Shown one piece after another: positions 7,795-46,926 of a stretch of 52,882 bases of DNA (positions within the stretch are counted from its first letter, which is position 1; every line of letters begins with the position of its first letter). Source of the DNA: Candidatus Poribacteria bacterium (GTDB lineage Bacteria > Poribacteria > WGA-4E > JAJDTR01); NCBI GenBank assembly GCA_022827055.1, contig JAJDTR010000023.1:1-52882 (forward strand), written 5' to 3'. Made by a program: the position numbers and the translations under genes. The notes below the pieces were generated by a model. That model worked only from the letters and a program-made list of their open reading frames with translations. It had not been told where the DNA came from and ran no database searches.

Positions 7795-8913
7795 CTACTC
7801 CCTTCCTTGCGAGATCTCGTCGGAATCGGTTAATTCTGGGAAGAGAGCTTCTTCTGGGGCAAAGAGATTGGCAAGAGAGGATTTGTCCAACCCGCGGCAA
7901 AAAAACTGTTTAGCCTTTTCTAACCTCACTTCAATTTGTTCTTTTGTTGCTTTCAACTTACAGCGTATATCTTTTCTGACGTCCTCGGTTGAGTCGTTAT
8001 GTGACCATAAGACCGCAAGGAGTTTACGTTCGTTATTGTGGCTAAGAGACTGTTGAAGAATTCCGTTTATGTGGGGATCGTTGAAACCGTAACCAACACA
8101 AACGATGAGACGCGACTCCAGACTCCAACGTCTCAATTGGTATGCGAGGTAAAGGAACGGATCGACATACTGCAGTTTGTAGGAAGTTCCGAAGATGATT
8201 GCAGTCTCTTCGTCAACGATACTTGCAGGGTCGTCAAAGTAGGTAACTCTTCCTTGATCAACAAAGGCCCAATCGGTGGATCCATGTAGTTTGTAGAGTA
8301 GTAGTGGGCGTAAATCCTCTGAGGTTTCATCGAATAATCGCCAATCCCAAGTTCTATCAGAGGAAAATCCCCGTTGCACTTGCTCCTCGCCGCATATCCT
8401 CTCGACGCATAGATCGTAGTTCAAAGAAAACACGCGGAGCGGATACTCGTATTGTTGCTGAAATTTTGAAAGACCTTGGTAGTAGGAAGCAGTTTCTTTA
8501 ATCGGCAATGTGACCCAGTGTTTGCGAAGAATTTCTATGATTTTACTACGGAAATTACGAACATTCTCGAATTCAGTCCCAGCAACGTCCATAAGTTTCG
8601 CGTTCCACGCACCGACAAAGGGATACAGCGGATGGCGTTCCTTCTGTTGAAGTTCATCCAAGACATTAACTAGACGTTCAATATTATACGGAACATCGTT
8701 TTCAAATCTGCCTTCTAATCCATCGGCATAGAAGATAGAGCTACGTATGTAGCGATAAAGACTTTCAAATTGGTTCCATTTAGGGTCTTTTCCTGAGACT
8801 AACTCTTCGATCTTATCGACCATTTTGCCGGAGTCAGGAATACTCGCCTCGACACTGGCACCGGCGCCAAGCAGTAGGATTACATCATTGCGTTTGAATA
8901 CTATCTTCGACAT
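7795..8913 (-). CDS. SIR2-domain effector of Argonaute system
   Basis: A 372-residue protein with a SIR2-like fold. With the ATG at 8913 as residue 1, the Rossmann loop LLLGAGASVEA is at about 13-23, NYD with Asn165 at 165-167, LHGS with His210 at 209-212, and VGYGFNDPHING at 273-284. Asn and His match the residues needed for NAD hydrolysis in defence SIR2 proteins such as ThsA and Argonaute-linked SIR2, so it is probably an active NADase that kills or arrests the infected cell. A TTG at 8925 is also in frame, but the ATG overlapping the Argonaute stop (TAATG) is the better start and implies translational coupling. The C-terminal 80 residues contain a charged helical segment (KATKEQIEVRLEKAKQFF). 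Confidence 0.88.
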   Translation of the reverse strand: MSKIVFKRNDVILLLGAGASVEASIPDSGKMVDKIEELVSGKDPKWNQFESLYRYIRSSIFYADGLEGRFENDVPYNIERLVNVLDELQQKERHPLYPFVGAWNAKLMDVAGTEFENVRNFRSKIIEILRKHWVTLPIKETASYYQGLSKFQQQYEYPLRVFSLNYDLCVERICGEEQVQRGFSSDRTWDWRLFDETSEDLRPLLLYKLHGSTDWAFVDQGRVTYFDDPASIVDEETAIIFGTSYKLQYVDPFLYLAYQLRRWSLESRLIVCVGYGFNDPHINGILQQSLSHNNERKLLAVLWSHNDSTEDVRKDIRCKLKATKEQIEVRLEKAKQFFCRGLDKSSLANLFAPEEALFPELTDSDEISQGRE

Positions 8914-10811
8914 TAAAGGAACCAAGGTTTGAGAATGTCAACATTAACGTCCGGTAGCCCGTGATTCTCAAACTCCTTTAAGTATTTAGCGATAAGCTGT
9001 GCGTAGTAAACTGAGACTGGTAGAGATTTCGCATTGAACCCGCGCCAGTTTGCGCCTGATAGATTTATAGCGTCTTGCAGATATGCCTGTTTCTGGTCGG
9101 GAGTTAACTCCTCAAGAGGATACGTGAATTCCACATGCAACGGGCCCCCAACCGTCTTGGGAAGCGTAGATCGTCCGAACTGCAGCCCTTCAAACCAGAC
9201 TAGGAACTCGTTGCGTGATAAAGGAATTACGGAACTTTCGTAGGGTACAAGGCTGTTATGATCTACGGCAAAGCCGAAGAATTTATTGCTGTCGTTGAAT
9301 TTTATTGAGATAAATTCCCCGTGCTGACCCAGTTGAATTTGTTGTTCCTTAAGTACACCAGCTATACTCCTGAGTTCGCGGCGGCTGATTTTAAAAGTGC
9401 TGTGGACCACAAAGTTTGCAAATTGGGGTGAATAGTGGTTGATAATCTCCCTAAGTTTGGTGGAGAATTTTTGAAGGTAGTCATCTTCGTTGTGGGAATC
9501 GGCAAGAACCTGGATATCTTCAAAGACACCACTGGAATCAGTGAGGACAGAATAGGCAAAATAGCGCTCAATTTGTCTCTCAATCCTGCGGTGGGCCTGC
9601 CCAATACCCACAATCATGCAGCGCTCGGTTTGAGGTTGGACCTTCCAAGGAGTTCCGCCTAGCTTTGCAAATATCTGAAGTCCGATACTCGCCGTTGCCC
9701 ACTTGAGCGCCTCCTTGTTGGATACTGTCTTAATGGATACAACCTGAATCGGCATACCCTTTGAAAGAAAGGCATGCTTCAGTGTCCAATATTCCGCGTT
9801 TTGCTCTGGAACATCGTGCCTGCTAAAGGGAGTAAGCACTATAGGAACAACATTTTTGTCGCCCGCATCTGTTACTACTCTATCTCGAATTTGATTAATC
9901 GCATTGGGGCTGAAGTCGGTCAGTGGAGCACCGTTGACATTTTCGTCCGAGATTGAAAGGCGAAACATTTCCTCCATACCGAGAAAGGTACGGAAAGTAT
10001 CTCCACGTAGTGCACGAAACAGGTCATGTGCTAGAGGCCGATCTTCATCCCTGTAAAGGAAGTACAAGTGGGCTTCTTCTGGCTGTTTTAACGGCCCAGA
10101 ATTCTTGACCCCCATGAATTGAGAACGAGATTCTCTTCCTGAAGCGACTATGTAAGTTTTGGGATTCAGGGTTTCTTCGGCTATTGCTAAGAGTTTCGAT
10201 TCAACCGGCAGTATTTGACCACCCGGTATGGTGATCGGAAAGATTTCATTATGAAACTTTTGAAAATATGTTGTTAGATATGAGTACCGGTCTGCATAGT
10301 GATCTAGATTTGGCTGGCCGTCCTCGTCGAACGCGAGACTGAGTTCCAATGCACGTCGCGTACCTCGAAACTCGGGAATGGGATGAAATCGAAAGTTGGC
10401 CAAGATACCAAATTTCCGACGTGAACTCAGAAGATAAGGTTCTAACGAGATTACTTGAACACCTTCAGGGTATGAGTTCATCACAATTTCCACACGTCTG
10501 CGAAAGCCTCCGACGACGCAGAATTGGTCGGCGCGAAGATTGGCAGTGCAACTTTGCACTAGGGCGTATCTTATAGCATCGATGGTGAGGTAGAAATTGT
10601 CAAATGGCTCATACACTTCCTCCGTTCCGCCCCCTGGTTGTTGGAAAAGCGTCCAATAGAGGTCTCTGATACCATTTATCTCAAGGTGCCGATAGACCGC
10701 TTTTTCATTTCCAATCGAAGGACGATCACCCTTCTCATACGGCAAGCGATAAAACGTGATTCTAAATTCATCTGTCGCTAGTGGAAAGAAGTTTAGCGCG
10801 ATTCCGGGCAT
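8913..10811 (-). CDS. Catalytically inactive prokaryotic Argonaute
   Basis: The 632-residue product ends in MID and PIWI domains. MID shows YWTLKHAFLSKGMPIQVV (341-358), giving the Tyr341/Lys345/Gln356 pattern that holds a guide 5' phosphate. Then come KLGGTPWKV (383-391), a PIWI hallmark, and NWRGFNAKSLPVSVYYAQLI (588-607), the usual PIWI end. The catalytic tetrad is missing: the first Asp site reads VGIGQAH (401-407), the third VVHSTFK (468-474) and the last is Asn588 or nearby. It should therefore bind guide and target without cutting. About 310 residues precede MID, more than in short pAgos, and could contain N and a reduced PAZ region. This fits the long-B group known to work with separate toxic effectors, here the coupled SIR2 gene. 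An AGGA site precedes the ATG. Confidence 0.87.
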   Translation of the reverse strand: MPGIALNFFPLATDEFRITFYRLPYEKGDRPSIGNEKAVYRHLEINGIRDLYWTLFQQPGGGTEEVYEPFDNFYLTIDAIRYALVQSCTANLRADQFCVVGGFRRRVEIVMNSYPEGVQVISLEPYLLSSRRKFGILANFRFHPIPEFRGTRRALELSLAFDEDGQPNLDHYADRYSYLTTYFQKFHNEIFPITIPGGQILPVESKLLAIAEETLNPKTYIVASGRESRSQFMGVKNSGPLKQPEEAHLYFLYRDEDRPLAHDLFRALRGDTFRTFLGMEEMFRLSISDENVNGAPLTDFSPNAINQIRDRVVTDAGDKNVVPIVLTPFSRHDVPEQNAEYWTLKHAFLSKGMPIQVVSIKTVSNKEALKWATASIGLQIFAKLGGTPWKVQPQTERCMIVGIGQAHRRIERQIERYFAYSVLTDSSGVFEDIQVLADSHNEDDYLQKFSTKLREIINHYSPQFANFVVHSTFKISRRELRSIAGVLKEQQIQLGQHGEFISIKFNDSNKFFGFAVDHNSLVPYESSVIPLSRNEFLVWFEGLQFGRSTLPKTVGGPLHVEFTYPLEELTPDQKQAYLQDAINLSGANWRGFNAKSLPVSVYYAQLIAKYLKEFENHGLPDVNVDILKPWFL

Positions 10812-30016: not shown

Positions 30017-30796
30017 TTATGACCGCACTCCTTTTTCAAGCGAACACATTGGATCGACGACGCTGTCAAGGCTCACGGTGAGGTCTGCGTGATGGCGGCT
30101 CAGCCATTGCTTGGCTCGCTCCATGTCGGGACAAAGGCTCTGAACGGTCAGCCAGAACTTCGCCGAATGGTCCGGGACGACTAGATGTACAACCTCATGC
30201 GCGACGAGGTAACGAAGCACGAAATCTGGCGCAAGGATGAGGCGCCAGTTGAAGGACAAGTTTCTGCGGGACGAGCAGTTTCCCCACTTCGTGCGCTGAC
30301 CCATCACGTATACCCGTCCGGGTTCCGCCCCAATGCGCTTGGTCACCACAGGTAGGTAGTCCGCAATGGCCGAGCGGGCCTGTCTTCTCAACCAATTCTC
30401 GAGACCACGCACTGCCTCTGTTTGGGTCTCCGGCCCTCGGCGAACGACAATCTTCCCGTCGTTCAACATGACGCGGTTTCCGCGAGCCTTCGTGTCGACG
30501 AAGTCGACGCACACCGGGGTTGGTTTGCCACGATACAAGATCTCGCCGGACTCCTGCCGCACTGGCCGCCTCAGGACACGAAGACTCGCCACGCGGTCGA
30601 GTTGGGCGAGCACCCAGTTCTCGTTCTTGCGCAGGAACGCCGACACGTGCTCGTCATTCACGCCCACCGGTTGAAGGACTTCGACCCCGCCTGGACCGAC
30701 CCGAATGCGAGTCTGCTGAGCGGTCCTGGAGACGACTATATTAAAATCCACGCGTCTGCCGCGCAGCACGATCCGCTGTTGAGTTACGGCCTTCAT
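30017..30796 (-). CDS. YgjP/SprT-like zinc metallopeptidase
   Basis: A 259-residue protein of the M48-related YgjP family (DUF45). The zinc site H200-E-V-V-H204 in LVAHEVVHLVVPDHSAKFW is complete. Preceding blocks VYVMGQRTKWGNCSSRRNLS and FNWRLILAPDFVLRY are the family's signature. It has no signal peptide. Members are frequently encoded directly after hsdR in type I restriction operons, and may process restriction subunits or proteins on DNA; this remains inference. Its ATG overlaps the hsdR stop (TGATG), so it is translationally coupled to the restriction subunit. Confidence 0.9.
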   Translation of the reverse strand: MKAVTQQRIVLRGRRVDFNIVVSRTAQQTRIRVGPGGVEVLQPVGVNDEHVSAFLRKNENWVLAQLDRVASLRVLRRPVRQESGEILYRGKPTPVCVDFVDTKARGNRVMLNDGKIVVRRGPETQTEAVRGLENWLRRQARSAIADYLPVVTKRIGAEPGRVYVMGQRTKWGNCSSRRNLSFNWRLILAPDFVLRYLVAHEVVHLVVPDHSAKFWLTVQSLCPDMERAKQWLSRHHADLTVSLDSVVDPMCSLEKGVRS

Positions 30797-33700
30797 CAGT
30801 CTGATACCCCGTCCGACTTGACCAACTCCTCCACTGCCGGCTTCAGGAACGGAGGGTCTGCGTCGTCCGTATCAAACCCCAGCCGTTCGTAACGTGGATT
30901 CCACGACTCTGCCAACAGCGACTGCTCCACGCGCATGCGCCCACTGACCGAGTTGCTCCACCCCGTCACGAGAAGCTTGTGCTGCCGCAGATGGCGGACC
31001 ATGTTGCGCGCGCACTCCGCGATGTAGGTCTCGTGGGTGACGGAAGTGTGGGCGCGCAGGATTGTGAACATGCCGTATTCGCCAGGTTGCGTGAGGCCCA
31101 GCCGTTCCGGCTCCAGCCTCGCGTTGGAGGCCTGGCTCGCGATGGTTTCCAATTCTTGCAGGCGCTTCGCGGTAGCCTCGTCGCTGGTTTCCTGTCGTTC
31201 CTTAATTTTTCGAAGCCTCTCCCCCAGTAGCCGATAGAGAAAGCCCGGATCGTCCTCCGCCAGTTCGGCGGTCAGCATCGCTTCCAAGGCGGCCGCCTTG
31301 TCGGCGGGCGTCGGGAGTTCGTCCAACTCTCCCGTGTAGTCTTGGTCGATCTTGAGGACCGGCAGCGACTGCGCCATCTCGACAAAGGTCGTGTTCTCCT
31401 CGATCAGCGCTGTCGTCTTCGCGGACAACTCCCCATAGGTATCCCTGCTCCCGCGCTGCCGCCGCCGGTGCGCCACGTAGATTCCGCAAAGCCAGTTGTA
31501 CTGGAGACGGTGCGGGTACAGGCACGGGTCGGGCGACACGGCCTCCCAGAGTCGTTCGAGGCTCCTGAAGTTCTGCTCGAAGCTCTTTGCTGTCTCGGAA
31601 TCGCGGAGCCGCCGCAGGGCGGACAGCAGACACTGTCGCGTATCCTCAATTACGATGCCCTCGAAGGTCTCCATGCACCGAGCGACCTCCCCGGGCACCG
31701 TCTCCCGCAGTTTTTCCCAATCGATAAGGGATTCTTCACGGATGCTCTCGTCAAAGTTGAGCGCCTTCTCCAAATCGGCGAAGACACCGAAGTAATCGAC
31801 AACGATCCCCGTCCGTTTCTTCATTGAGGGCAGGGGCCGGTTGGTTCGGGCAATCGCTTGAAGCAGGTTGTGGTCGCGCAGCGGCTTATCCAAATACATC
31901 ACCTGCTCCACCGGCGCGTCAAACCCGGTGAGAAGGCGGTCGCAGACGATGAGGATCTTGAGCGGAGGTCGCCACTCGGCCCGGTCGTTACCGTGACGTT
32001 CCTGATTCCAGTCCTCCCACTGCGCCGGTGTCAACTTGAAGTAATCGATCAGCTCGTCTTGCTTCGCCTTGGCATACTCAAAGCGCTCGACATCGGGCTC
32101 GCTGTTCTGCGCTGTCGAGATGATCACGTCTGACGTTTCCGGCGGGAGTCCCCGATCGCACAGCCGGCGGTCGAGCAAGTTCTTGTAGACTGCGCACGCC
32201 TTGCGGTCTACAGCGACGATCTGGGCCTTGAAGCCGTTCGGGTTGGGATGGGCCAGAAAGTGGGCTAGCATCTTGTCAAGCACGATGTCCACCCGGTTTG
32301 GATGCCGAACTAGCTCCTTCCACCGGGACCGTTGGCGTTGAACGAAGTCCTTTGCCTCCTCGTCCTGCAGTTCCATTTCCTCGCAAATCTGCTCGAACCC
32401 GATGCTCAGGGGTCCCTCTTCGACTTCAATGGGCACGACATCGCGGACGTAATGCACCTCCAGCGTCGCCCCGTCCTGGATTGAACGGCGGATGCCATAA
32501 TAGCTCAAGTAACGCTCCTGCACGCCGTCCTTCAGTGGTCCGAAATCGCGATGGGTGTTCTGCAGGGTACGGTCGATGGGCGTCCCGGTGAAGCCGAACC
32601 GAAACCCGTTCTGAAGCTTAACGCGCATGGTGAGCGCATGGCTCTCGCGACTTCCCTTGCTCGTGCCCGTCTGCGAGCGGTGGCACTCGTCCACTAGACT
32701 CACTATGTTGTCGCGGCTCAACGGGGCAAGGTCGTCCATCTTCTGGAAGGACTGTAGGGTCGTCACCAAGGTGCCGCGCCAGTCGCTCCTCAGCCTCCGT
32801 TTGAGGTCTTCGACGCCTAGAGCCTTTTCGACGTTGGCGTAGTCGCAGGCATCGAAGTCGTCCGCGAGTTGTGTCTTGAGGTCGCGACGGTCGACGACGA
32901 TGAGTACCGTCGGATTGTCGAGTGCCGGATGCCGGCGCAGCTTCTGGCCCGCAAACAGCATGGTGAGAGACTTGCCGGAGCCCTGGGTGTGCCAGATTAG
33001 GCCGGTACGATCTTGGGCGCTCACCTGCTGACCCACCTGTGCCACCGTGCGGTCTACCAGCTCGTTTACCGCCTCAAACTGTTGATAGCGGGCAATTTTC
33101 TTCGCGGTTGCGCCTCTTTTGGTCTCGAAAACGCTGAAGTGTCGAAGGAAGTCAAGCACGTGCGACGGCTCCAATCGCAGGAGCCCCCTGACAGGCGTCT
33201 CTAGCGGGTCGTCGGGATGCGCGGCCTCGGGCTCGTTCCACCAGCCGCGATGGTCCGGATACAGGCTGAGCCAGCGGCCCCATTGGTCGAGGTGACGGTC
33301 GATGTCTTCCTTGCTGGCGTTGTGAAACAGCACTGTCCCGTAACGGAATTCGTCTTCGTCTGCCGCTACGCAGAAGACGTTGGGAGCCAGCATCAGCGGC
33401 GCTTGCCGCTGGTATCGATGAAGTTGGTGCACCGCCTCGCGCCAGTCCTTGCCGCTGGTCACGTAGCTCTTGTATTCTGCAACCACAAGGGGAATACCGT
33501 TGACCAGCAGCACCGTATCCTCGCGGCACTGCTTGACGCCCTGCACGCGGTATTGATTGGTGGCGGTGAAGTCGTTCAGATGCTGACGCTTCGCCTCGAA
33601 AGCGATGAAGTGTACAGTACGCGCGTCTTCGCCCGGGCGGAGCACGACCTTGACGCCATCACGCAGCAGATCGAGCGTCGCGTGGTTGGCGTTAAGCCGG

Positions 33701-33957
33701 TCCGGCTGTCCCATCGCCTCGCGCAGCGCCTTGACTGCGCTCTGAGCCTGAGTCTCGGTCTCCACTTGCGGGTTGATGCGAACGATGGCCGCCTTCAGCA
33801 GTGTCTCAACGAGCGGGTTTTCCAAGGGCCGACCGAACTCCGCCATTGCCGCCTCGTCACGGTACGTCCAGCCTAAGCCGCCCACATGGTAGGAGACTCT
33901 CGACTCCCCACAAAGCCAGTTCAGTATCGGCTGTTCGACGTAGCCGTATTCGCTCAT
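30796..33957 (-). CDS. hsdR: Type I restriction enzyme, R subunit
   Basis: A 1053-residue HsdR. The N-terminal nuclease motif is D147...E161-Y-K163 (EDTVLLVNGIPLVVAEYK). The translocase has Walker A HTQGSGKS (323-330), LVDECHRSQ (421-429, DECH box), FGFTGTPI and later helicase motifs ILIVCDRLLTGFDAPVEQVM and QAIARTNR. The C-terminal part is helical (about 830-1050), for binding the methylase core. With HsdM and HsdS it forms the ATP-driven complex that translocates and cuts DNA lacking its methylation. All motifs are intact, so it should be active. It overlaps hsdS by ATGA and the peptidase gene by TGATG. Confidence 0.97.
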   Translation of the reverse strand: MSEYGYVEQPILNWLCGESRVSYHVGGLGWTYRDEAAMAEFGRPLENPLVETLLKAAIVRINPQVETETQAQSAVKALREAMGQPDRLNANHATLDLLRDGVKVVLRPGEDARTVHFIAFEAKRQHLNDFTATNQYRVQGVKQCREDTVLLVNGIPLVVAEYKSYVTSGKDWREAVHQLHRYQRQAPLMLAPNVFCVAADEDEFRYGTVLFHNASKEDIDRHLDQWGRWLSLYPDHRGWWNEPEAAHPDDPLETPVRGLLRLEPSHVLDFLRHFSVFETKRGATAKKIARYQQFEAVNELVDRTVAQVGQQVSAQDRTGLIWHTQGSGKSLTMLFAGQKLRRHPALDNPTVLIVVDRRDLKTQLADDFDACDYANVEKALGVEDLKRRLRSDWRGTLVTTLQSFQKMDDLAPLSRDNIVSLVDECHRSQTGTSKGSRESHALTMRVKLQNGFRFGFTGTPIDRTLQNTHRDFGPLKDGVQERYLSYYGIRRSIQDGATLEVHYVRDVVPIEVEEGPLSIGFEQICEEMELQDEEAKDFVQRQRSRWKELVRHPNRVDIVLDKMLAHFLAHPNPNGFKAQIVAVDRKACAVYKNLLDRRLCDRGLPPETSDVIISTAQNSEPDVERFEYAKAKQDELIDYFKLTPAQWEDWNQERHGNDRAEWRPPLKILIVCDRLLTGFDAPVEQVMYLDKPLRDHNLLQAIARTNRPLPSMKKRTGIVVDYFGVFADLEKALNFDESIREESLIDWEKLRETVPGEVARCMETFEGIVIEDTRQCLLSALRRLRDSETAKSFEQNFRSLERLWEAVSPDPCLYPHRLQYNWLCGIYVAHRRRQRGSRDTYGELSAKTTALIEENTTFVEMAQSLPVLKIDQDYTGELDELPTPADKAAALEAMLTAELAEDDPGFLYRLLGERLRKIKERQETSDEATAKRLQELETIASQASNARLEPERLGLTQPGEYGMFTILRAHTSVTHETYIAECARNMVRHLRQHKLLVTGWSNSVSGRMRVEQSLLAESWNPRYERLGFDTDDADPPFLKPAVEELVKSDGVSD

Positions 33958-35255
33958 GGCGCGAGGCCCTCCCTCATATTGCCGACTCGGACCTTACCGG
34001 TGAGGAGGTCGTGCATTAGCGACCGCTTCACCTGTTTCAAGGCCTCGCACTTGGCGATCAAGGTATCCTCCACTCGCTCGGCTGCCGTCACGGTGTTGAT
34101 GATTTCCAATTGCCTGTGGTCTGGCGCAACAAGGAAGTACCGCGGATAAAGGTCCTTGTTGTTGAGTTGTGGAACCCCGGAATCCTCGATGTACCGAGCA
34201 AGGTTTCGCCATTCAAGCTGTAACCGCAGGAATTCAGGGCGCATTCCAAGCTGGGTTTGAAGTGCCATCAGGTTTGGATCGAGCGACACGGGTACGGCTG
34301 TTGTTCGTATCCGATTCTTCATGATGGCCGCGCCCCGCTTTGCAATCACGACGGTACCGATTGGAAGCACCTTAAATCGCTCGTTCTCACGCGCTCGAAA
34401 ACCAAGCTGGGTTCGGACGATCATGCGTCCATTGGCGGGGTCGTTAAAATCGTCCACCTTCATGAACCAAGTGTCTGGGGCGGCGTCATCCTGCGGTAGT
34501 TTCAAGGCGTCAACGCTGCTACACCCGGCCGCAACGATGAAAAAGGCCCGGCGGCCGCGGACCGCATCCCAACTGCATGGAATACGACCGCAGTGCGTGT
34601 CTTTCCAAGGCCCTTGCCATCCCCCAAATCCGAACGACGATTGTAGCAATGCACGTCGCACCGTCCGCGCAGTGTCAGCGGACTTACGAGTGCGTTCCAG
34701 CGCTGTGTCCACGGCGTCAAGAATGCGGGCGATGGCGGCTTGCTCTTCGGACGGAGGAACGGGAATCGACATACTCTTGAAGAAGCTATGGCTGAGGTTA
34801 CTCAGGCCCGTCGTACCTTCTGCGGTGGCGCTCAAGTACGACTGTATTGGTTCAGAGGAGAGCCACCGAAAAAAATAGTCTGGCCTTAGTTCACTGTTGG
34901 ATTTTGGCTTTGCACCGATCAAGAAAGACGCAAACAAAAAACCCGCATGGTTCCGAATTAGCTGAGCGTTTCCTATTCTGTTTTTGTTGCCGTTTGACCC
35001 GACAATTACAGTCCAATCAGCTGATACCTGTGCCTTATCCACCTCACTTGAGCTTAGTCTAGAAAGATAGAGCAGATCGTCCAGTTCCAACCGATCCTGG
35101 ATGTTCTTGATGCCGATGACAGGCATTCGGTTTGGTCCCGGCTCCGAGTGCTCCTGTTCCTTCGACCAAGATACACCACGCGCGAGCTCGACGCTGCGTT
35201 GGACTGTCGTCGTGCACCAACCAGCGGGATGTGGCGTTGCATCAGTCGGACGCAT
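33954..35255 (-). CDS. hsdS: Type I restriction enzyme, specificity subunit
   Basis: A 433-residue HsdS with two target-recognition domains separated by helical spacers. The first ends at SFFKSMSIPVPPSEEQAAIA then RILDAVDTALERTRKSADTA, the central conserved helix. The second ends at PRYFLVAPDHRQLEIINTVT then RVEDTLIAKCEALKQVKRSL and MHDLLTGKVRV. The first TRD is shorter than most (about 140 residues before the spacer), but the reading frame from the ATG that overlaps hsdM by 14 bases covers it. The subunit determines a bipartite recognition sequence that cannot be read from the sequence. Its stop overlaps the hsdR start (ATGA). Confidence 0.94.
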   Translation of the reverse strand: MRPTDATPHPAGWCTTTVQRSVELARGVSWSKEQEHSEPGPNRMPVIGIKNIQDRLELDDLLYLSRLSSSEVDKAQVSADWTVIVGSNGNKNRIGNAQLIRNHAGFLFASFLIGAKPKSNSELRPDYFFRWLSSEPIQSYLSATAEGTTGLSNLSHSFFKSMSIPVPPSEEQAAIARILDAVDTALERTRKSADTARTVRRALLQSSFGFGGWQGPWKDTHCGRIPCSWDAVRGRRAFFIVAAGCSSVDALKLPQDDAAPDTWFMKVDDFNDPANGRMIVRTQLGFRARENERFKVLPIGTVVIAKRGAAIMKNRIRTTAVPVSLDPNLMALQTQLGMRPEFLRLQLEWRNLARYIEDSGVPQLNNKDLYPRYFLVAPDHRQLEIINTVTAAERVEDTLIAKCEALKQVKRSLMHDLLTGKVRVGNMREGLAP

Positions 35256-37281
35256 AACCGGCCTCCCGTAACATTGCAGCTAGAGTCCTCTCCGCTTCCA
35301 TCCTCGCAGTTTCTGCATCACGGAATTTCGAAAGAGATTCCACTACATCCATTCGCGCCTCTGGCTCGAACGTATCCACGTAGCGTGGCACGTTGAGGTT
35401 GAACTCGTTCTCCTCGACTTCGTCCATGTCGACGACGCGGGCGTGCTTGAACAGTTCGTCGGGGTCTGAATAGAGCGCTACAAGTTCCTGGCTTACGGCG
35501 CTGACATCCTTCCGGTCGTCGTCGGCGCTGCGGCGCGCCTCGGCGATGCGCTCGTCGCGCTCCGCTACCTTCTCTCCGATCTTGTCGCGTTGCTTCCGAA
35601 GCTTCGTCAACACCGACGCCGCTTTCGTCTTTTCGCGCTTCGTCGCGGCGGCGCGCTGCTTTTCGTGGGCCTCCTGAAGCGTATTGTTGAGATCGGTCAG
35701 TCTGTCAGCATGCGGCTGATATTCGGCCTCGAGCCGGCCGACCTCGTCCGCCTCCCGCCGGGCGATTTCGCTGTGAATCCTTCCCCTGTGTTCTTCCACG
35801 AGACCAGCCGCCTTAGAGGCATCACCGTAGGCGTGGTAATGCACGAGCATCCGCATAACGTCCTGGGGGCGGAGCTCGTTCTGGGCGGAGATTTCGCGGT
35901 AGTGCCGGGCGGCATAGATCAACAGGACCCGATCCCGGCGCTCCACCGGGCGTTGTCTGCGCAAGATCAACAGGCACGCGGGCACTCCTGCGCCGTAAAA
36001 AACGTTGAGTGGCAGCGAGACGACGGCGTCGATCAACCGGGATTCGAGCAGCGCCCGCCTGATGAGATGCTCGTCATCGGCCTTGCGCCGCTTAACCTTC
36101 GGTTTCCCCTTGGCATCGAAATCGCCTGTCTCTTCCTCGATTTCCGGCTGGCCGCGGAAGAGCACCCCCTGCGGGCAGACGATGCCAGCCCGCCCGTTGT
36201 CGGACAGCGAAGCAAGGATGTGGAGGATGAACGCATAGTCCCCGTAGTTGGCCGGCGGCGCCTGGAAGCCGGTGCCGCGGCCAAAACGACCGTAAGGATC
36301 CTTGTAGCCTTCGCTGCCGAATATCTCCTTCTGCAGCCGTGCCTTTCGGGTCTTGTCGTCGGTCTGCTGCTCCGGCTTCAGCCACCAGTAATCGTCCGAG
36401 AACGGGAAATTGGCGAGCACCAGAGAGAACTTGCGCACTTCTCCGTCTTGGAGAAACAGCGGGTCGGTAATGGTGCTGTTGCCGGCCCGGATGTCGGCTT
36501 CGAGGCCGTGGAGCACGGAGTTAATCTTGCCGATGGCGGCGTTGCCCCAGTTCATCTCCTGCGCGAAATAGCGCGCGTGGGTCGGCAGATGGCCGTGTTC
36601 GCGGAGGTAGTCGGCGGCGTGCACCAGCATCCCGCCGGAGCCCGCGGTCGGATCGTAAATCGTATCGCCGGGGCGCGGCTCTAGGATGCGCACCAGGGTG
36701 TCGACCACCTCCGGCGGAGTGAAGAACTCGCCCGCCTTCGCGCCGGCATCGTCGGCGAACATCTTGATGAGGTATTCGTAGGCCCGTCCCAGCACGTCGG
36801 CCGGCACGTTTCGGTTCGACAGATCGTGCTCATCGAAGTGCTGGACTAGAGCGTGGACCACTTCATTGGCAATCAGTGGTTTGCCCGACCCGTCGGGCGC
36901 TGGCTGATTCCAGTCCACAGTGAACACACCCCGCAACTCGGCGTTGGCGTTGGCCACAGCCCGCATCGCATCTGTCAGGACCTCGCCGATGTTCACCGAT
37001 ACCGCCTTGATGTCTCCCCACCGGGCGCCGTCCGGGATGTCGTAACGATGCTCGCCACGCGCGCGGAAGATGGCCTTTTGCGCCTCGGTAAACGGGCGGT
37101 CCTGCTGCCGTTCCTGCTCAGCGATGGCGTCGTCCGCCTCCCACTCCCACTGGTCGCAGAGCCTCTTGTAGAACATCAGTGACAGGATGTAGTTCTTATA
37201 GTCCTGCCCCGCCGTCTTGCCACGCAGGATCTTCGCCGCACCCCAGAGGTGCGCTTCAAGTTGTTGGAGCGTAAGCTTCAT
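35242..37281 (-). CDS. hsdM: Type I restriction enzyme, M subunit
   Basis: A 679-residue N6-adenine methyltransferase. The N-terminal helical domain (1-160) precedes GEFFTPPEVVDTLVRIL (184-200), the AdoMet motif I DPTAGSGGM (210-218), and the catalytic motif IV as NFPF (291-294), the variant found in one HsdM subgroup in place of NPPY/F. A charged coiled-coil segment of about 70 residues follows (about 520-620: DLNNTLQEAHEKQRAAATKR..., then KLRKQRDKIGEKVAERDERI), longer than in enteric HsdM. It methylates the host target and forms the M2S core with HsdS. It is the first gene of the hsdM-S-R-peptidase operon. Confidence 0.95.
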   Translation of the reverse strand: MKLTLQQLEAHLWGAAKILRGKTAGQDYKNYILSLMFYKRLCDQWEWEADDAIAEQERQQDRPFTEAQKAIFRARGEHRYDIPDGARWGDIKAVSVNIGEVLTDAMRAVANANAELRGVFTVDWNQPAPDGSGKPLIANEVVHALVQHFDEHDLSNRNVPADVLGRAYEYLIKMFADDAGAKAGEFFTPPEVVDTLVRILEPRPGDTIYDPTAGSGGMLVHAADYLREHGHLPTHARYFAQEMNWGNAAIGKINSVLHGLEADIRAGNSTITDPLFLQDGEVRKFSLVLANFPFSDDYWWLKPEQQTDDKTRKARLQKEIFGSEGYKDPYGRFGRGTGFQAPPANYGDYAFILHILASLSDNGRAGIVCPQGVLFRGQPEIEEETGDFDAKGKPKVKRRKADDEHLIRRALLESRLIDAVVSLPLNVFYGAGVPACLLILRRQRPVERRDRVLLIYAARHYREISAQNELRPQDVMRMLVHYHAYGDASKAAGLVEEHRGRIHSEIARREADEVGRLEAEYQPHADRLTDLNNTLQEAHEKQRAAATKREKTKAASVLTKLRKQRDKIGEKVAERDERIAEARRSADDDRKDVSAVSQELVALYSDPDELFKHARVVDMDEVEENEFNLNVPRYVDTFEPEARMDVVESLSKFRDAETARMEAERTLAAMLREAGYASD

Positions 37282-42336: not shown

Positions 42337-43161
42337 ATGCCCGTTTTAAGTGCGGAAAACCGCGCCTTCTGGGAGGAACACGGTTACGTGGCTGTTCATG
42401 ACGCCGTACCACCGGAGAACACGAAAGCCGCCGAGGATGCGGTTTGGAACTTTCTCGATATGGATGCTGAGAATAGGGAAACTTGGTATCCCGACCCGCC
42501 GCGTTCCAGTATCATGGTGGAGATATACCAGCATCAAACGCTGTGGGACAATCGTCAATCCCCGCGGCTACACCAAGCCTTTGCTGAAATATGGGGAACC
42601 GAGGAGTTGTGGGTTAGCTTTGATCGGGCAAGCATGAGTCCGCCCAATCGTCCGCCGAAATTGAATCGAACGGATGCCGGGCTGCATTGGGACAGAAATC
42701 CCTTCAACCCTCCATCCAATCTCGGCGTGCAAGGCGTGCTGTATCTGACCGACACGGCAGCCAATCAGGGCGCGTTCACCTGCGTACCCGGGTTCCATCA
42801 CAAAATTGAGGCGTGGCTGGAAACTCTCCCGAAGGACGCCGACCCACGGCGGCAAGATTTGGAGAGTTTGGGCGCCGAACCGATTCCGGGGAAAGCGGGG
42901 GACCTGATAATCTGGCACAGCAGTTTGCCTCACGGCGCGGGGCCCAATTTTGCCGACCAACCTCGCGTGGTGCAGTACATCACCATGTTTCCCGCCGGTG
43001 AGGACAGCGAAGAATCCCGCGCAAAACGAATTGACGCGTGGCGAAACCGCGGGGCAGGATTTAGCGGCGAGCGAGAGGAGAAGGAATTTACGGAGGGTAA
43101 GACCGCAAAACTCACGCCGTTGGGGAGGAAACTGCTGGGGTTGGAAAAGTGGAGGAGTTGA
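42337..43161 (+). CDS. Phytanoyl-CoA dioxygenase (PhyH) family protein
   Basis: A 274-residue Fe(II)/2-oxoglutarate dioxygenase. The metal triad is H117-x-D119 in GLHWDRNPF and His199 in SLPHGAGPN; Arg210 in PRVVQYITMFP should bind 2-oxoglutarate. The SIMVEIYQHQTLW and GVQGVLYLTDTAANQGAFTC beta strands match the family. Poribacteria-like genomes carry many PhyH paralogues with unknown substrates; hydroxylation of lipids or secondary metabolites is possible. AGAGGAGAG precedes the ATG. It is a plus-strand gene divergent from the kinase operon. Confidence 0.92.
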   Translation: MPVLSAENRAFWEEHGYVAVHDAVPPENTKAAEDAVWNFLDMDAENRETWYPDPPRSSIMVEIYQHQTLWDNRQSPRLHQAFAEIWGTEELWVSFDRASMSPPNRPPKLNRTDAGLHWDRNPFNPPSNLGVQGVLYLTDTAANQGAFTCVPGFHHKIEAWLETLPKDADPRRQDLESLGAEPIPGKAGDLIIWHSSLPHGAGPNFADQPRVVQYITMFPAGEDSEESRAKRIDAWRNRGAGFSGEREEKEFTEGKTAKLTPLGRKLLGLEKWRS

Positions 43162-43534
43162 ATATTTGGCATCTGGGAACGAACAAATCTGATGATCATT
43201 GACTATGTAACGCAAGTTTCCACCTACAAGATTTTAGACATGCGCCACCGTTTTTAATTGAGAATAGTTCATCAATTGCGGAGATTTCGTAGCGCAAACT
43301 GTTAGTTTGCGCATCACAAACACAATCTAACAGATTGTGTTACAGAGGTGACAACTTGGGTTATGTAAGAATGTCATAAAGTGCATCCGGAATTGTGTAT
43401 ATTTGGAAACACGGTAGGACTTACGAACTTTAGTGGGCTACGCGGATCTGCGTTCCCTACTTGCCTGAATCCTAGAAAGGGACAAAAAACTAGGTAGGGA
43501 ATAACTAGCCAGCCTAACTGCCGAGGAAGAAAGC
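43162..43534. other. Repeat-rich spacer upstream of the Sec array
   Basis: No gene is seen. Two palindromes stand side by side: GCGCAAACTGTTAGTTTGCGC (43292-43312) and ACACAATCT-AAC-AGATTGTGT (43320-43340). A GGATCTGCGTTCCCTAC half-repeat at 43444-43460 belongs with 14117. The promoter of the three-gene array must be here, but no box is convincing. Confidence 0.5.
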
Positions 43535-44614
43535 ATGAAGATTCAGATCGAATTAAACGGACCGGAACCGATTGTAGTCAGCGCATCCATTGCCCCTATT
43601 GAGTTTTCCACGGGGGGATTTCATGTGGACTGGGAGACGCTTGCGACGCTGAGAGAGGTCGAGCCGCAGAAAGCCTATCCGGTTTCAACGTTCCGCGGTT
43701 TCCTCCCGCCAGAGGCAGTTACCGTGGGTGAATATTGGGAAATTGACGACAAATCCGCGCTTGAGTTGCTGAAGCAACTTGCCGAGAATCCAAGTCTTCA
43801 ACTGTGGGTTAATGACGATCCAGGCCAATGGGCGTCACTTCGGGCTTACAACGACGATTACGCGGAGATTGTGTTTCGCATTCATGCCGCGTTTGTGTTG
43901 ACGGATGGATTTTTCACACCCTCACAATTTGCTGGGTGTCTGATTATTGACCGTCACTTGGAGCAATTGGCTAATTTTGAGATGTCTGTTCCGCCGAGCA
44001 CACTGAACTTTGATGTCCACAGGAACTACGATGATGGGCGCAACCTCACTGACTGTGGAATTTGTCAGATTGAGATGAACGCCGGCCAAGTGGCCACGCG
44101 AGAATCGAATTATTCCGAAGAAATCTCTGTGGACGAGGCTCAACTCGGGCTCGCGAGGCAGTTTTACCCCGCACAATCTATTGAATGGGTAAAGTTGGAA
44201 GAAGCGGTAGAGATGGCAAAGGCGCTTAACCGCCCTATCCATGTTGTTTCGGCCGACGGTACCTTTATGGATCAGTCGTGCTGAGGAAGCGGAAAAATTC
44301 TGAGGGCAGGTGCCCTCGCCGATAAGAAGACGATTGAGTATTTAAACTCGAATTTTGTTAATCTCTGGGTTCTCAATCTCGATCTCAAACGACACCGGGA
44401 TGCAAAGGGGATTGATGGTGTGTCGCCGTTGGAGCGTGCCATAATCGGGGGTTGGAATGAGAAATCTCCGGTAGATTGCCAAGTGATTTCCAGCGAGTTG
44501 AAACTGCTCGGGAGTCTACCACTCAATGACTTCATTGACGCTTATCACAGCTACCCTAATCACAGCGAAGAAGCACAAGTTTATCGGGACTTTTTGAAGC
44601 GTTCGTTAGCATAA
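43535..44614 (+). CDS. SelN-like selenoprotein, copy 1 (UGA = Sec250)
   Basis: The protein is 359 residues if the in-frame TGA at 44282-44284 is read as selenocysteine. The N-terminal 210 residues include QWASLRAYNDDYAEIVFRIH, FFTPSQFAGCLIIDR and NFEMSVPPSTLNFD, resembling the region before the Sec domain of animal selenoprotein N. The C-terminal thioredoxin-like part has IEWVKLEEAVEMAKALNRPI then DQSC-U-GSGK, as in SelN's SCUGSG motif. After TGA the same frame is open for 110 codons and conserved in all three copies. A hairpin with a GU loop follows (44302-44317). Without Sec insertion, two broken fragments would result. There is no signal peptide or EF-hand. It would act as a redox protein; partners are unknown. 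Confidence 0.9.
44282..44317 (+). promoter_or_regulatory. Sec codon UGA and SECIS hairpin, copy 1
   Basis: TGA (44282-44284) is followed after 17 bases by GAGGGC (44302-44307), loop AGGT (44308-44311) and GCCCTC (44312-44317): a 6-bp perfect stem whose loop holds the GU needed by bacterial SelB-bound SECIS elements. The distance of 23 bases from UGA to the loop lies in the usual bacterial window. Confidence 0.85.
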
Positions 44615-44693
44615 ATCCGCCCCGAATCGTAGGAATTTTGCAGCGTTCTGGAACATCTATGTCAACTGATTGGTACCCCTAGCGGAGGAAAGG

Positions 44694-45776
44694 ATGAAGA
44701 TACAGCTTGAGTTAAATGGTCCGGAACAAATTGTCGTTAACGCATCTATTCCCCCAATTACGTTTACTACAGCCGGCTTTCATGTGGACTGGGAGCCGCT
44801 TGCGACGCTGAGAGAGGTTGAACCGCAAAGAAACTATCCAATCTCAACATTTCAAGGCTTCCTCCCACGGACGGAGGTTTCTGTCGGCGAACACTGGAAA
44901 ATTGGCCCCGAATCCGCACTCCAGTTACTGAAGCAACTCGCCGAAGAGCCGCAACTAGAACTGCGGAATCGTGAGGACATAGGCCAGTGGGCATCCCTTC
45001 GCGCATACAACGACAATTATGCGGAGACTGTGTTCCGCATACATACGGTGTTCACGTTCAAGGATGGGAGGTTTACACCCTCACAACTTTCTGGAGCCCT
45101 AATTATTGACCGGCGCTCGGAGGAATTGATATATTTCGAGATGTCCGTTCCACCGAGCACGCTGAACTTTGATGCAGTTAGAAACTATGATGAGAATGGC
45201 GGCATCACAGAATGCGGTGTTTGCCGAATTGAGATGGTTGCCGGCAAAAACATCGCTCAACGGTTGGCTTACTCCGAAGAAATCTCTATGGACGAGGCGC
45301 GGCTGGGATTAGCGAGGCAGTTTTATCCGGCGCAATCCATTGAATGGGTAACGCTGGAAGAAGCGGCAGAGATGGCAAAAGCGCTTGACCGCCCCATCCA
45401 TGTTGTGTCTGCGGATGGTACCTTCATGGATGAGTCGTGTTGAGGCAGCGGAAAACACTTGAGGGCAGGTGTCCTCGGCGATAAAGACACGATTGATTAT
45501 TTAAACGCCAATTTTGTCAATCTCCATGTGCTTAATCTCGACCTCAAACGGCGTCGAGATGCAGAGGGGATTGATGGCGTTTCTCCGTTGGAGCGCGTCA
45601 TCATCGGCGGTTGGAATGAGGAATCCCCGGTAGATTGCCAAGTGATTTCCAGCGAGTTGAAACTGCTGGGGAGCCTACCGCTGAATGATTTTCTTGGTGC
45701 GTTTAGTCCCACCAGGCCACAAGACTATCGCGATTATTTGAGACGTTCGTTAGCGGAAGCGCCTCCGGAAGCGTAG
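44694..45776 (+). CDS. SelN-like selenoprotein, copy 2 (UGA = Sec250)
   Basis: The protein is 360 residues with selenocysteine at the TGA of 45441-45443. It shares most blocks with copies 1 and 3: FHVDWEPLATLREVEPQ, AYNDNYAETVFRIH, RFTPSQLSGALIIDR, SVPPSTLNFD, IEWVTLEEAAEMAKALDRPI and DESC-U-GSGK. The part after TGA reads LRAGVLGDKDTIDYLNANFV, then PVDCQVISSELKLLGSLPLN. The ATG at 44694 is chosen by homology and by GGAGGAAAGG in front; an in-frame TTG eight codons earlier was rejected. The 79-base spacer behind copy 1 is similar to the one behind this copy, so whole units were duplicated. Confidence 0.9.
45441..45476 (+). promoter_or_regulatory. Sec codon UGA and SECIS hairpin, copy 2
   Basis: TGA (45441-45443), then GAGGGC (45461-45466), loop AGGT (45467-45470), GTCCTC (45471-45476). 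Compared with copy 1, one G-C pair has become G.U, so pairing is kept. Confidence 0.85.
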
Positions 45777-45846
45777 GACTTGTGCTGAAAACTGGAGACA
45801 TCTGTGCCAACCAATCAATAACCTCAGCGGAGAAGCGGAGAAAATG

Positions 45847-46926
45847 ATGAAGATTCAGCTTGAGTTAAACGGTCCCAATCCGATTGTCGTTAACGCATCT
45901 ATTCCCCCAATTACGTTTACTACAGCCGGCTTTCATGTGGACTGGGAGCCGCTTTCGACGCTTAAAGAGGTCGAACCACGCAGAAATTATCCTGCCTCGA
46001 CATTTCAAGGCTTTCTCCCGCGGAAGGCAGTTTGTGTCGGCGAACACTGGAAAATTAATTCCGAATCCGCACTCCAGCTACTAATGCAACTCGGCGAAGA
46101 GCCGCAATTGGAATTACAGAATGATGAAGGAGGGCAGTGGGCATGCCTTCGCGCCCAAAACGACGTCTACGCTGAGGTTGTGTTCCGCATACATACGGAA
46201 TTTGCGTTCAAGGATGGGATGTTTACACCCTCTCAACTTGCTGGAAGCCTGATTATTGACCGGCACCAGCAGGAGTTAACTTATTTTGAGATGTCCGTTC
46301 CACCGAGCACGCTGAACTTTAATGCCCACAGGAAACTGGAGGACGATCGAGTCGTCACCGAATGCGGTGTTTGCCAGATCGGGATGACTGCCGGAGAGAG
46401 AGTCGCCCAAGAATTGACCTACGCGGAAGAAATCTCTATAGAGGAGGCGCGGCTGAGACTTGCGAGACAGTTTTATCCTGCGCAATTCATCGAATGGGTA
46501 ACGCTGGAAGAAGCGCCGGAGATGGCAAAGTTGCTTGACCGTCCCATCCATGTTGTTTCGGCGGACGGCACTTTCATGGATGAATCGTGCTGAGGGAGCG
46601 GCAAATTTTTGAGGACAGTTGTCCTCGGCGATGAAGACACGATAGGGTATTTAAACGCCAATTTTGTCAATCTCTATGTGCTAAATCTCGACCTCAAACA
46701 ACGCCGCGATGCGAAAGGGATTGAAGGTGTTTCGCCGTTGGAGCGAGTTATTATCGGGGGTTGGAATGAGAAATCGCCCGTAGATTGCCAAGTGATTTCC
46801 AACGAGTTGAAACTGCTCGGAAGCCTACCGCTCAATGATTTTAGTGATGTGCATAGCCGCACTAAAGCACAAGACTATCGTGATTATTTGAGTCGTTCGA
46901 TAGCGGTAACATCCCACGAAGCGTAA
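45847..46926 (+). CDS. SelN-like selenoprotein, copy 3 (UGA = Sec249)
   Basis: The protein is 359 residues with selenocysteine at the TGA of 46591-46593. It shows FHVDWEPLSTLKEVEPR, QWACLRAQNDVYAEVVFRIH, MFTPSQLAGSLIIDR, SVPPSTLNFN, IEWVTLEEAPEMAKLLDRPI and DESC-U-GSGK. After TGA it reads FLRTVVLGDEDTIGYLNANF and continues to LSRSIAVTSHEA. The start could be either of two adjacent ATGs (45844 or 45847); the second has better spacing from GCGGAG and matches copies 1 and 2. Copy 3 has diverged most in its loop (AGTT instead of AGGT). The array ends 96 bases before a convergent glycosidase gene. Confidence 0.9.
46591..46626 (+). promoter_or_regulatory. Sec codon UGA and SECIS hairpin, copy 3
   Basis: TGA (46591-46593), then GAGGAC (46611-46616), loop AGTT (46617-46620), GTCCTC (46621-46626). 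Relative to copy 1 both sides of one pair changed (G-C to A-U), and the loop keeps GU. Confidence 0.85.

Follow-up and report, generated by a model that had tools for sequence, protein, structure and literature searches.

The window analysed here is a stretch of 52,882 nucleotides from Candidatus Poribacteria bacterium (contig JAJDTR010000023.1), whose draft genome comprises 5.57 Mb in 171 contigs and is 92% complete. It holds three genes in a head-to-tail row, separated by spacers of 79 and 67 bases and each preceded by a purine-rich stretch resembling a ribosome-binding site (Table 1). An earlier reading of the DNA alone, here called the original prediction, had taken them for a triple array of selenoproteins resembling selenoprotein N (SelN). 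Poribacteria are known as sponge symbionts, and SelN is known as an animal muscle-disease protein and a human disease protein.

Frame reading places the three genes where the original prediction had put them, each with an in-frame TGA in S-C-U-G-S-G-K, where U is the predicted selenocysteine (Sec). This TGA is the only stop in each frame before the terminal codon, and the wider context D-[QE]-S-C-U-G-S-G-K is common to all three copies. Each copy has 249 codons before the TGA (248 in copy 3 if translation starts at 45847), and the in-phase continuation, earlier put at about 110 codons, counts 109, 110 and 110 sense codons in copies 1, 2 and 3. The three proteins share 70–78% identity with one another.

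Table 1. Coordinates of the array's genes and predicted signals, as positions in the window.
Feature	Position	Strand	Detail or basis
SelN homologue 1	43535..44614	+	358 sense codons and one in-frame TGA; ends TAA
SelN homologue 2	44694..45776	+	ends TAG
SelN homologue 3	45844..46926	+	start 45844 or 45847 (ATGATG); ends TAA
TGA of copy 1, predicted selenocysteine codon (D-Q-S-C-U-G-S-G-K)	44282..44284	+	frame reading
TGA of copy 2, predicted selenocysteine codon	45441..45443	+	frame reading
TGA of copy 3, predicted selenocysteine codon	46591..46593	+	frame reading
Predicted bacterial SECIS hairpin, copy 1 (6-bp stem, AGGT loop)	44302..44317	+	pairing and synonymous-shuffle analysis
Predicted SECIS hairpin, copy 2 (AGGT loop)	45461..45476	+	pairing and synonymous-shuffle analysis
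Predicted SECIS hairpin, copy 3 (AGTT loop; a G-C stem pair of copy 1 is A-T here)	46611..46626	+	pairing and synonymous-shuffle analysis
GAGGAA, ribosome-binding-site-like, copy 1	43523..43528	+	read by eye
GGAGG, ribosome-binding-site-like, copy 2	44684..44688	+	read by eye
GGAG, ribosome-binding-site-like, copy 3	45837..45840	+	read by eye

Reading frame on both sides of the TGA

The in-phase frame after the TGA is not due to chance. When the downstream stretch of copy 1 was mononucleotide-shuffled, it stayed open for 103 codons in 48 of 20,000 trials, a figure that holds for copy 1 alone, before agreement of the three copies is required. The claim that conservation is equally high on both sides of the TGA was borne out: identity among the window copies is 67–78% before it and 75–79% after. 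The ratio of nonsynonymous to synonymous substitution rates (dN/dS), taken over the 21 pairs formed by the three window copies and four copies of a same-genus genome (G001), is low on both sides (0.15–0.27 before, 0.07–0.47 after). The downstream 109–110 codons are under purifying selection similar to that on the upstream part. Beyond the window, exactly one in-frame TGA, always at the same codon, is found in 108 of 109 distinct full-length copies, drawn from the window and from the examined SelN loci of this genome and its relatives.

If the UGA were a true stop, translation would give a product of 249 residues, and the frame beyond it would be dead or a piece of its own. Ordinary gene calling yields this product. 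The open reading frame (ORF) list splits the window genes into pieces of 249, 257 and 249 amino acids before the TGA and 64, 105 and 105 after it, so that the forecast of six fragments was about right. Database homologues of copy 2 are mostly stored in the same way, 103 of 108 ending exactly at [SAG]-C, and when two database searches are joined, 222 of the 228 homologues listed are cut at the UGA. A true stop is nonetheless barely credible, given that the frame after the TGA is under purifying selection, that the ORFs there are of unequal length when read from ordinary starts, that this part, which can be aligned with animal SelN beyond the Sec, forms most of a predicted thioredoxin fold, and that a hairpin in it is conserved beyond coding need.

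A candidate insertion signal and the selenocysteine machinery

The hairpin, with a stem of 6 bp, lies at nucleotides 20–35 after the T of the TGA, and its loop is AGGT or AGTT in most copies. Across 118 distinct 60-nt stretches, standard pairs fill 95.2% of pair cells, compared with 62.6% (maximum 66.2) in synonymous shuffles, and all six pairs are kept in 83.9% of stretches, compared with 1.8% (maximum 5.9). The null (500 trials) preserved the protein and took its synonymous codons from the neighbourhood of the stretch within the same genes. A further 14 stretches form six pairs around a 6-nt loop; in either register (4- or 6-nt loop), six pairs are present in 113 of the 118 stretches and at least five in all. 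The apical loops are AGGT in 71, AGTT in 42, GGGT in three, and AGGC and ACGT in one each. In 121 of 121 contexts the stem arginine is encoded by AGG or AGA, whereas CGN accounts for 58 of the 66 arginine codons in the pool, and the leucine codon opposite it is CTC in 116 of the 121.

Bacterial selenocysteine insertion sequence (SECIS) elements closely follow the UGA and have an early G in the apical loop, and the predicted hairpins of the window family share both traits. The hairpin is conserved beyond coding need and fits a bacterial SECIS.

The expectation that the genome would encode Sec machinery held for three components: selA (513 bits), selB (352 bits) and tRNA-Sec (76 bits, above the Rfam threshold) adjoin one another within 3.3 kb on a single contig (C156). 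For selD, the draft itself gave nothing above cut-off, and the gene is present above cut-off in G001. In the scan of relatives, selD exceeded the cut-off in 81 of 97 genomes, the same-genus one included. The selD gene itself carries an in-frame TGA in the listed over-cut-off rows, except in genome G084 (an example is G001:C22:246651-247577). Among the 64 SelN-bearing genomes, selD is found in 58, a strong selA in 56, tRNA-Sec in 57 and all three in 48; the only one with none of them is a 73%-complete draft. Of eight order-mates without SelN, six have selD, selA and tRNA-Sec and two have two of these. Because these SelN-free order-mates have the machinery, SelN looks like an added client of an existing Sec trait.

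These data also bear on the possibility that the UGA is read through with a standard residue, by reassignment of UGA or a suppressor tRNA. Frame continuity alone cannot tell which residue is inserted. Among the other long ORFs of the window that do not overlap, however, 9 of 24 end in TGA, which therefore acts as an ordinary stop elsewhere in this DNA. The selA, selB and tRNA-Sec of the genome, the SECIS-like hairpin and the Sec in the SCUG motif of animal SelN (in the available part of PMC12839072) also argue against a standard residue, which we consider very improbable.

Several observations weigh against reading the UGA as Sec. In the 92%-complete draft of the window genome no selD was found above cut-off, only a below-cut-off relative, and the Sec machinery is not proof by itself because it also occurs in order-mates without SelN. 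The only non-TGA copy among the 109, inside a tandem array (L056 10887-12038), has serine at that codon (DEACSESGK), and cysteine stands there in 0 of the 109 full-length copies, so that the usual Sec/Cys swap argument is missing. Five of the 118 stretches have no full six-pair stem in either register (five pairs each), and the loop of the third window copy is AGTT, not AGGT. Finally, the sequences in the hairpin comparison are related and the 121 contexts were chosen for having a TGA, so that the shuffles overstate its strength; because the sequences are not independent, we used the effect size and give no p-value.

Relationship to animal SelN and the predicted enzyme

The original prediction had based its SelN-like call on motifs. 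It is now backed by homology to named SelN through both domains, by the predicted SECIS hairpin and by the Sec machinery. A profile comparison (hhalign; 19 bacterial copies versus six named vertebrate SelN) aligned 349 columns with probability 100 and an E value of 6.1e-47, and the alignment covers both domains and runs past the Sec. Because it spans 349 columns, we take the likeness to be homology and not a mere shared motif. Singly, window copy 2 matches coelacanth SelN with E 2e-17, and a copy on another contig of the window genome (C106) matches it with E 4e-44 and 29% identity over 361 columns. The motif is SCUG in all three window copies; elsewhere [SAG]CU is followed by G, or by A in some copies. 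Animal SelN has its Sec in an SCUG motif, according to the available part of PMC12839072, from which the animal motif was taken, the vertebrate records used having no clean residue there.

The same part of that source places a membrane span in the N-terminal part of animal SelN, and a calcium-binding EF-hand in this region was taken from record names. Across the first 100 columns of the alignment the bacterial rows hold almost no residues: the N-terminal extension of animal SelN is missing from them (as seen in the alignment; no transmembrane predictor was run). The bacterial proteins thus belong to the SelN family by homology and are not the animal SELENON anchored in the endoplasmic reticulum (ER), because this extension of ~110 residues is missing. 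Judged from sequence, we have high confidence that the window genes are SelN-homologous genes for predicted selenoproteins.

The predicted model, of ~360 residues, consists of a beta-barrel and a thioredoxin fold. The order of its elements (strand 235–240, SCU 248–250, helices 254–258/264–273, strand 275–280, helix 281–291, strands 313–318 and 324–329, helix 341–354) is that of thioredoxin (beta-alpha-beta-alpha-beta-beta-alpha), with the active site after the first strand, and thioredoxin-fold structures match it with Z to 11.7. The barrel domain gave no clear match in the structure comparison, and a search of solved structures with the bacterial copies returned no credible sequence match to SelN.

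This model suggests a mechanism. SelB would bind the hairpin, and the ribosome would insert Sec at the UGA as in other bacteria. Within the thioredoxin fold, the Ser-Cys-Sec-Gly motif is predicted to occupy the active-site place, and the cis-Pro place is predicted to be taken by Pro312, a near-invariant residue that immediately precedes a core strand. Cys249 and Sec250 could then cycle between a selenenylsulfide and a thiol/selenolate pair, reducing disulfides or oxidised thiols of partner proteins. We hold this redox role with moderate confidence; the partners, like a cytosolic location, are presumed. The copies, diverged over both domains, may serve different partners. Partner choice by the barrel would be a guess, because close copies diverge no more before the TGA than after it. 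Taken together, it is very probable that the window carries three tandem bacterial SelN homologues, their UGA predicted as Sec and their products likely cytosolic Cys-Sec redox enzymes.

Expansion, origin and known systems

SelN matches occur in 64 of the 84 phylum genomes examined, up to 18 per genome and 453 in all (some genes being counted twice), with more than one match in 59. Of the 20 phylum genomes that gave no match, eight are the order-mates, and the other 12 are all those examined from elsewhere in the class or phylum. A wider sample of 386 genomes, with these 84 among them, yielded matches in the same 64, and its 302 genomes outside the phylum gave one marginal hit only. The nearest named records are Candidatus Poribacteria metagenome-assembled genomes. 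Each of 20 regions picked for holding several matches contains between two and eight copies, and in L064 eight stand head to tail, the longest such run. The window triplet exemplifies, on a small scale, a large expansion, which in our judgement, with no other family counted, may rank with the largest expansions of a single selenoprotein family in a prokaryote.

The window genome has two further copies on other contigs (C106 87012-88115, locus L023; C6 3799-4674, locus L024), which carry SCUANG/SCUADG and form a second clade, A (S-C-U-A-N-G), the first assigned by tree and the second by motif; by score, clade A stands closer to animal SelN than do the window copies. In regions of family f2, many copies continue in frame for 110–185 or 229–315 residues beyond the SelN part (upper bounds, as frames there were read through TGA). 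In the sequences viewed, these extensions show a segment, apparently rich in beta structure, that occurs once or is repeated twice as one or two repeats; no such extension is present in the window copies. The copy at L064 9956-11959 has an extension of two repeats after its SelN part, with no Pfam match. Truncated or split copies inside arrays (L056 6597-7061, L063 14847-15958) are signs of gene turnover.

In the tree, window copies 1 and 3 pair with copies 1 and 4 of G001; copy 2 is closest by identity to G001 copy 3 (79% before the TGA, 92% after), a fork that the tree leaves open. Because of this pairing, and because the same four genes lie upstream of the array in both genomes, the array is older than the species split. 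One of the four is a PhyH-family dioxygenase (Pfam; 42337-43161 in the window), directly upstream of the array and also present in G001; the others, by eye, are a sugar epimerase, a dehydrogenase and a sugar kinase. Elsewhere in the window, inspection by eye suggests a type I restriction-modification set in the large genes at 30796-37281 and, at 7795-8925, a protein whose start resembles a SIR2-like NAD-binding domain, possibly related to defence.

The copies could instead do another job as SelN selenoproteins, in peroxide or selenium handling, or supply dosage through many near-equal copies. The barrel has no clear structural match, so its ligand is not deducible, and copy numbers of up to 18 could serve dosage. 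Yet identity within the window array, as within that of G001, is only 66–81% in each part, and the tree joins two of the three window copies each to a copy of G001, so that they are not a recent dosage amplification; with one Sec per protein, the family would also be a poor selenium store. We regard these alternatives as unlikely.

On origin, any statement carries low confidence. The family may be an old vertical one in Poribacteria, with no exchange with animals and a very ancient likeness to animal SelN, a view to which we give an even chance. It is favoured by the long branches (1.76 and 0.96 changes per column) that separate the animal from the bacterial clades and by the synteny, which shows vertical descent within the genus; against it, SelN is lacking in the 302 sampled genomes outside the phylum, save one marginal match, and in 12 of 12 genomes that share the class or phylum but not the order. 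This patchy spread fits exchange. A broader proposal, which we put forward tentatively and find somewhat less probable, is that Poribacteria hold the bacterial SelN branch, whose arrays of up to eight genes encode specialised selenium-based redox enzymes and are a main client of the Sec trait in these symbionts, and that SelN passed between symbiont and animal lineages, its UGA signal being rebuilt between a SECIS in the 3' untranslated region (3' UTR) and an in-gene hairpin. A sponge (Amphimedon) has its own SelN, according to the available part of PMC3473315. No direction of transfer can be given, because the tree is unrooted and holds no sponge or protist sequence.

Enrichment of SelA and SelB in sponge symbionts was reported earlier (PMC5649159, in its available part), and the SelN arrays would give it a client. 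Bacterial SelN was not found in the literature searched, among the matches listed and without subscription papers or preprints. SelN is not in the family table of a 2026 catalogue of 119 prokaryotic selenoprotein families (available part of PMC13188914). In the accessible part of the deep-Sep paper (PMC12013277), SelO is reported as a eukaryotic family whose presence in bacteria is new, and the term 'SelN' does not occur. In the databases searched, poribacterial SelN proteins are mostly cut at the UGA. Bacterial homologues without the membrane-anchored extension would offer a direct route to SelN structure and enzymology.

Bacterial multi-selenoprotein operons such as SAO and Tso likewise hold several Sec codons in one gene run, but from different families (available part of PMC13188914), whereas Poribacteria repeat one family head to tail, up to eight times. 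From AGR2/AGR3, the ER protein Rp19 (1sen) and DsbH-like thioredoxin-fold proteins, bacterial SelN differs by its adjacent Cys-Sec in SCUG and its extra N-terminal beta domain, and no sequence match to them was found. The closest counterpart is animal SELENON (SEPN1), collinear over ~350 columns and sharing the Cys-Sec motif, the stretches FRIHxEF and P[AS]QFxG and the C-terminal thioredoxin-like part. Unlike it, the bacterial copies lack the N-terminal extension in which the membrane span lies and start ~110 residues further on; their predicted hairpin directly follows the UGA, whereas the eukaryotic SECIS lies in the 3' UTR (available part of PMC12013277); and the bacterial side has many paralogues, some relatives with C-terminal extensions.
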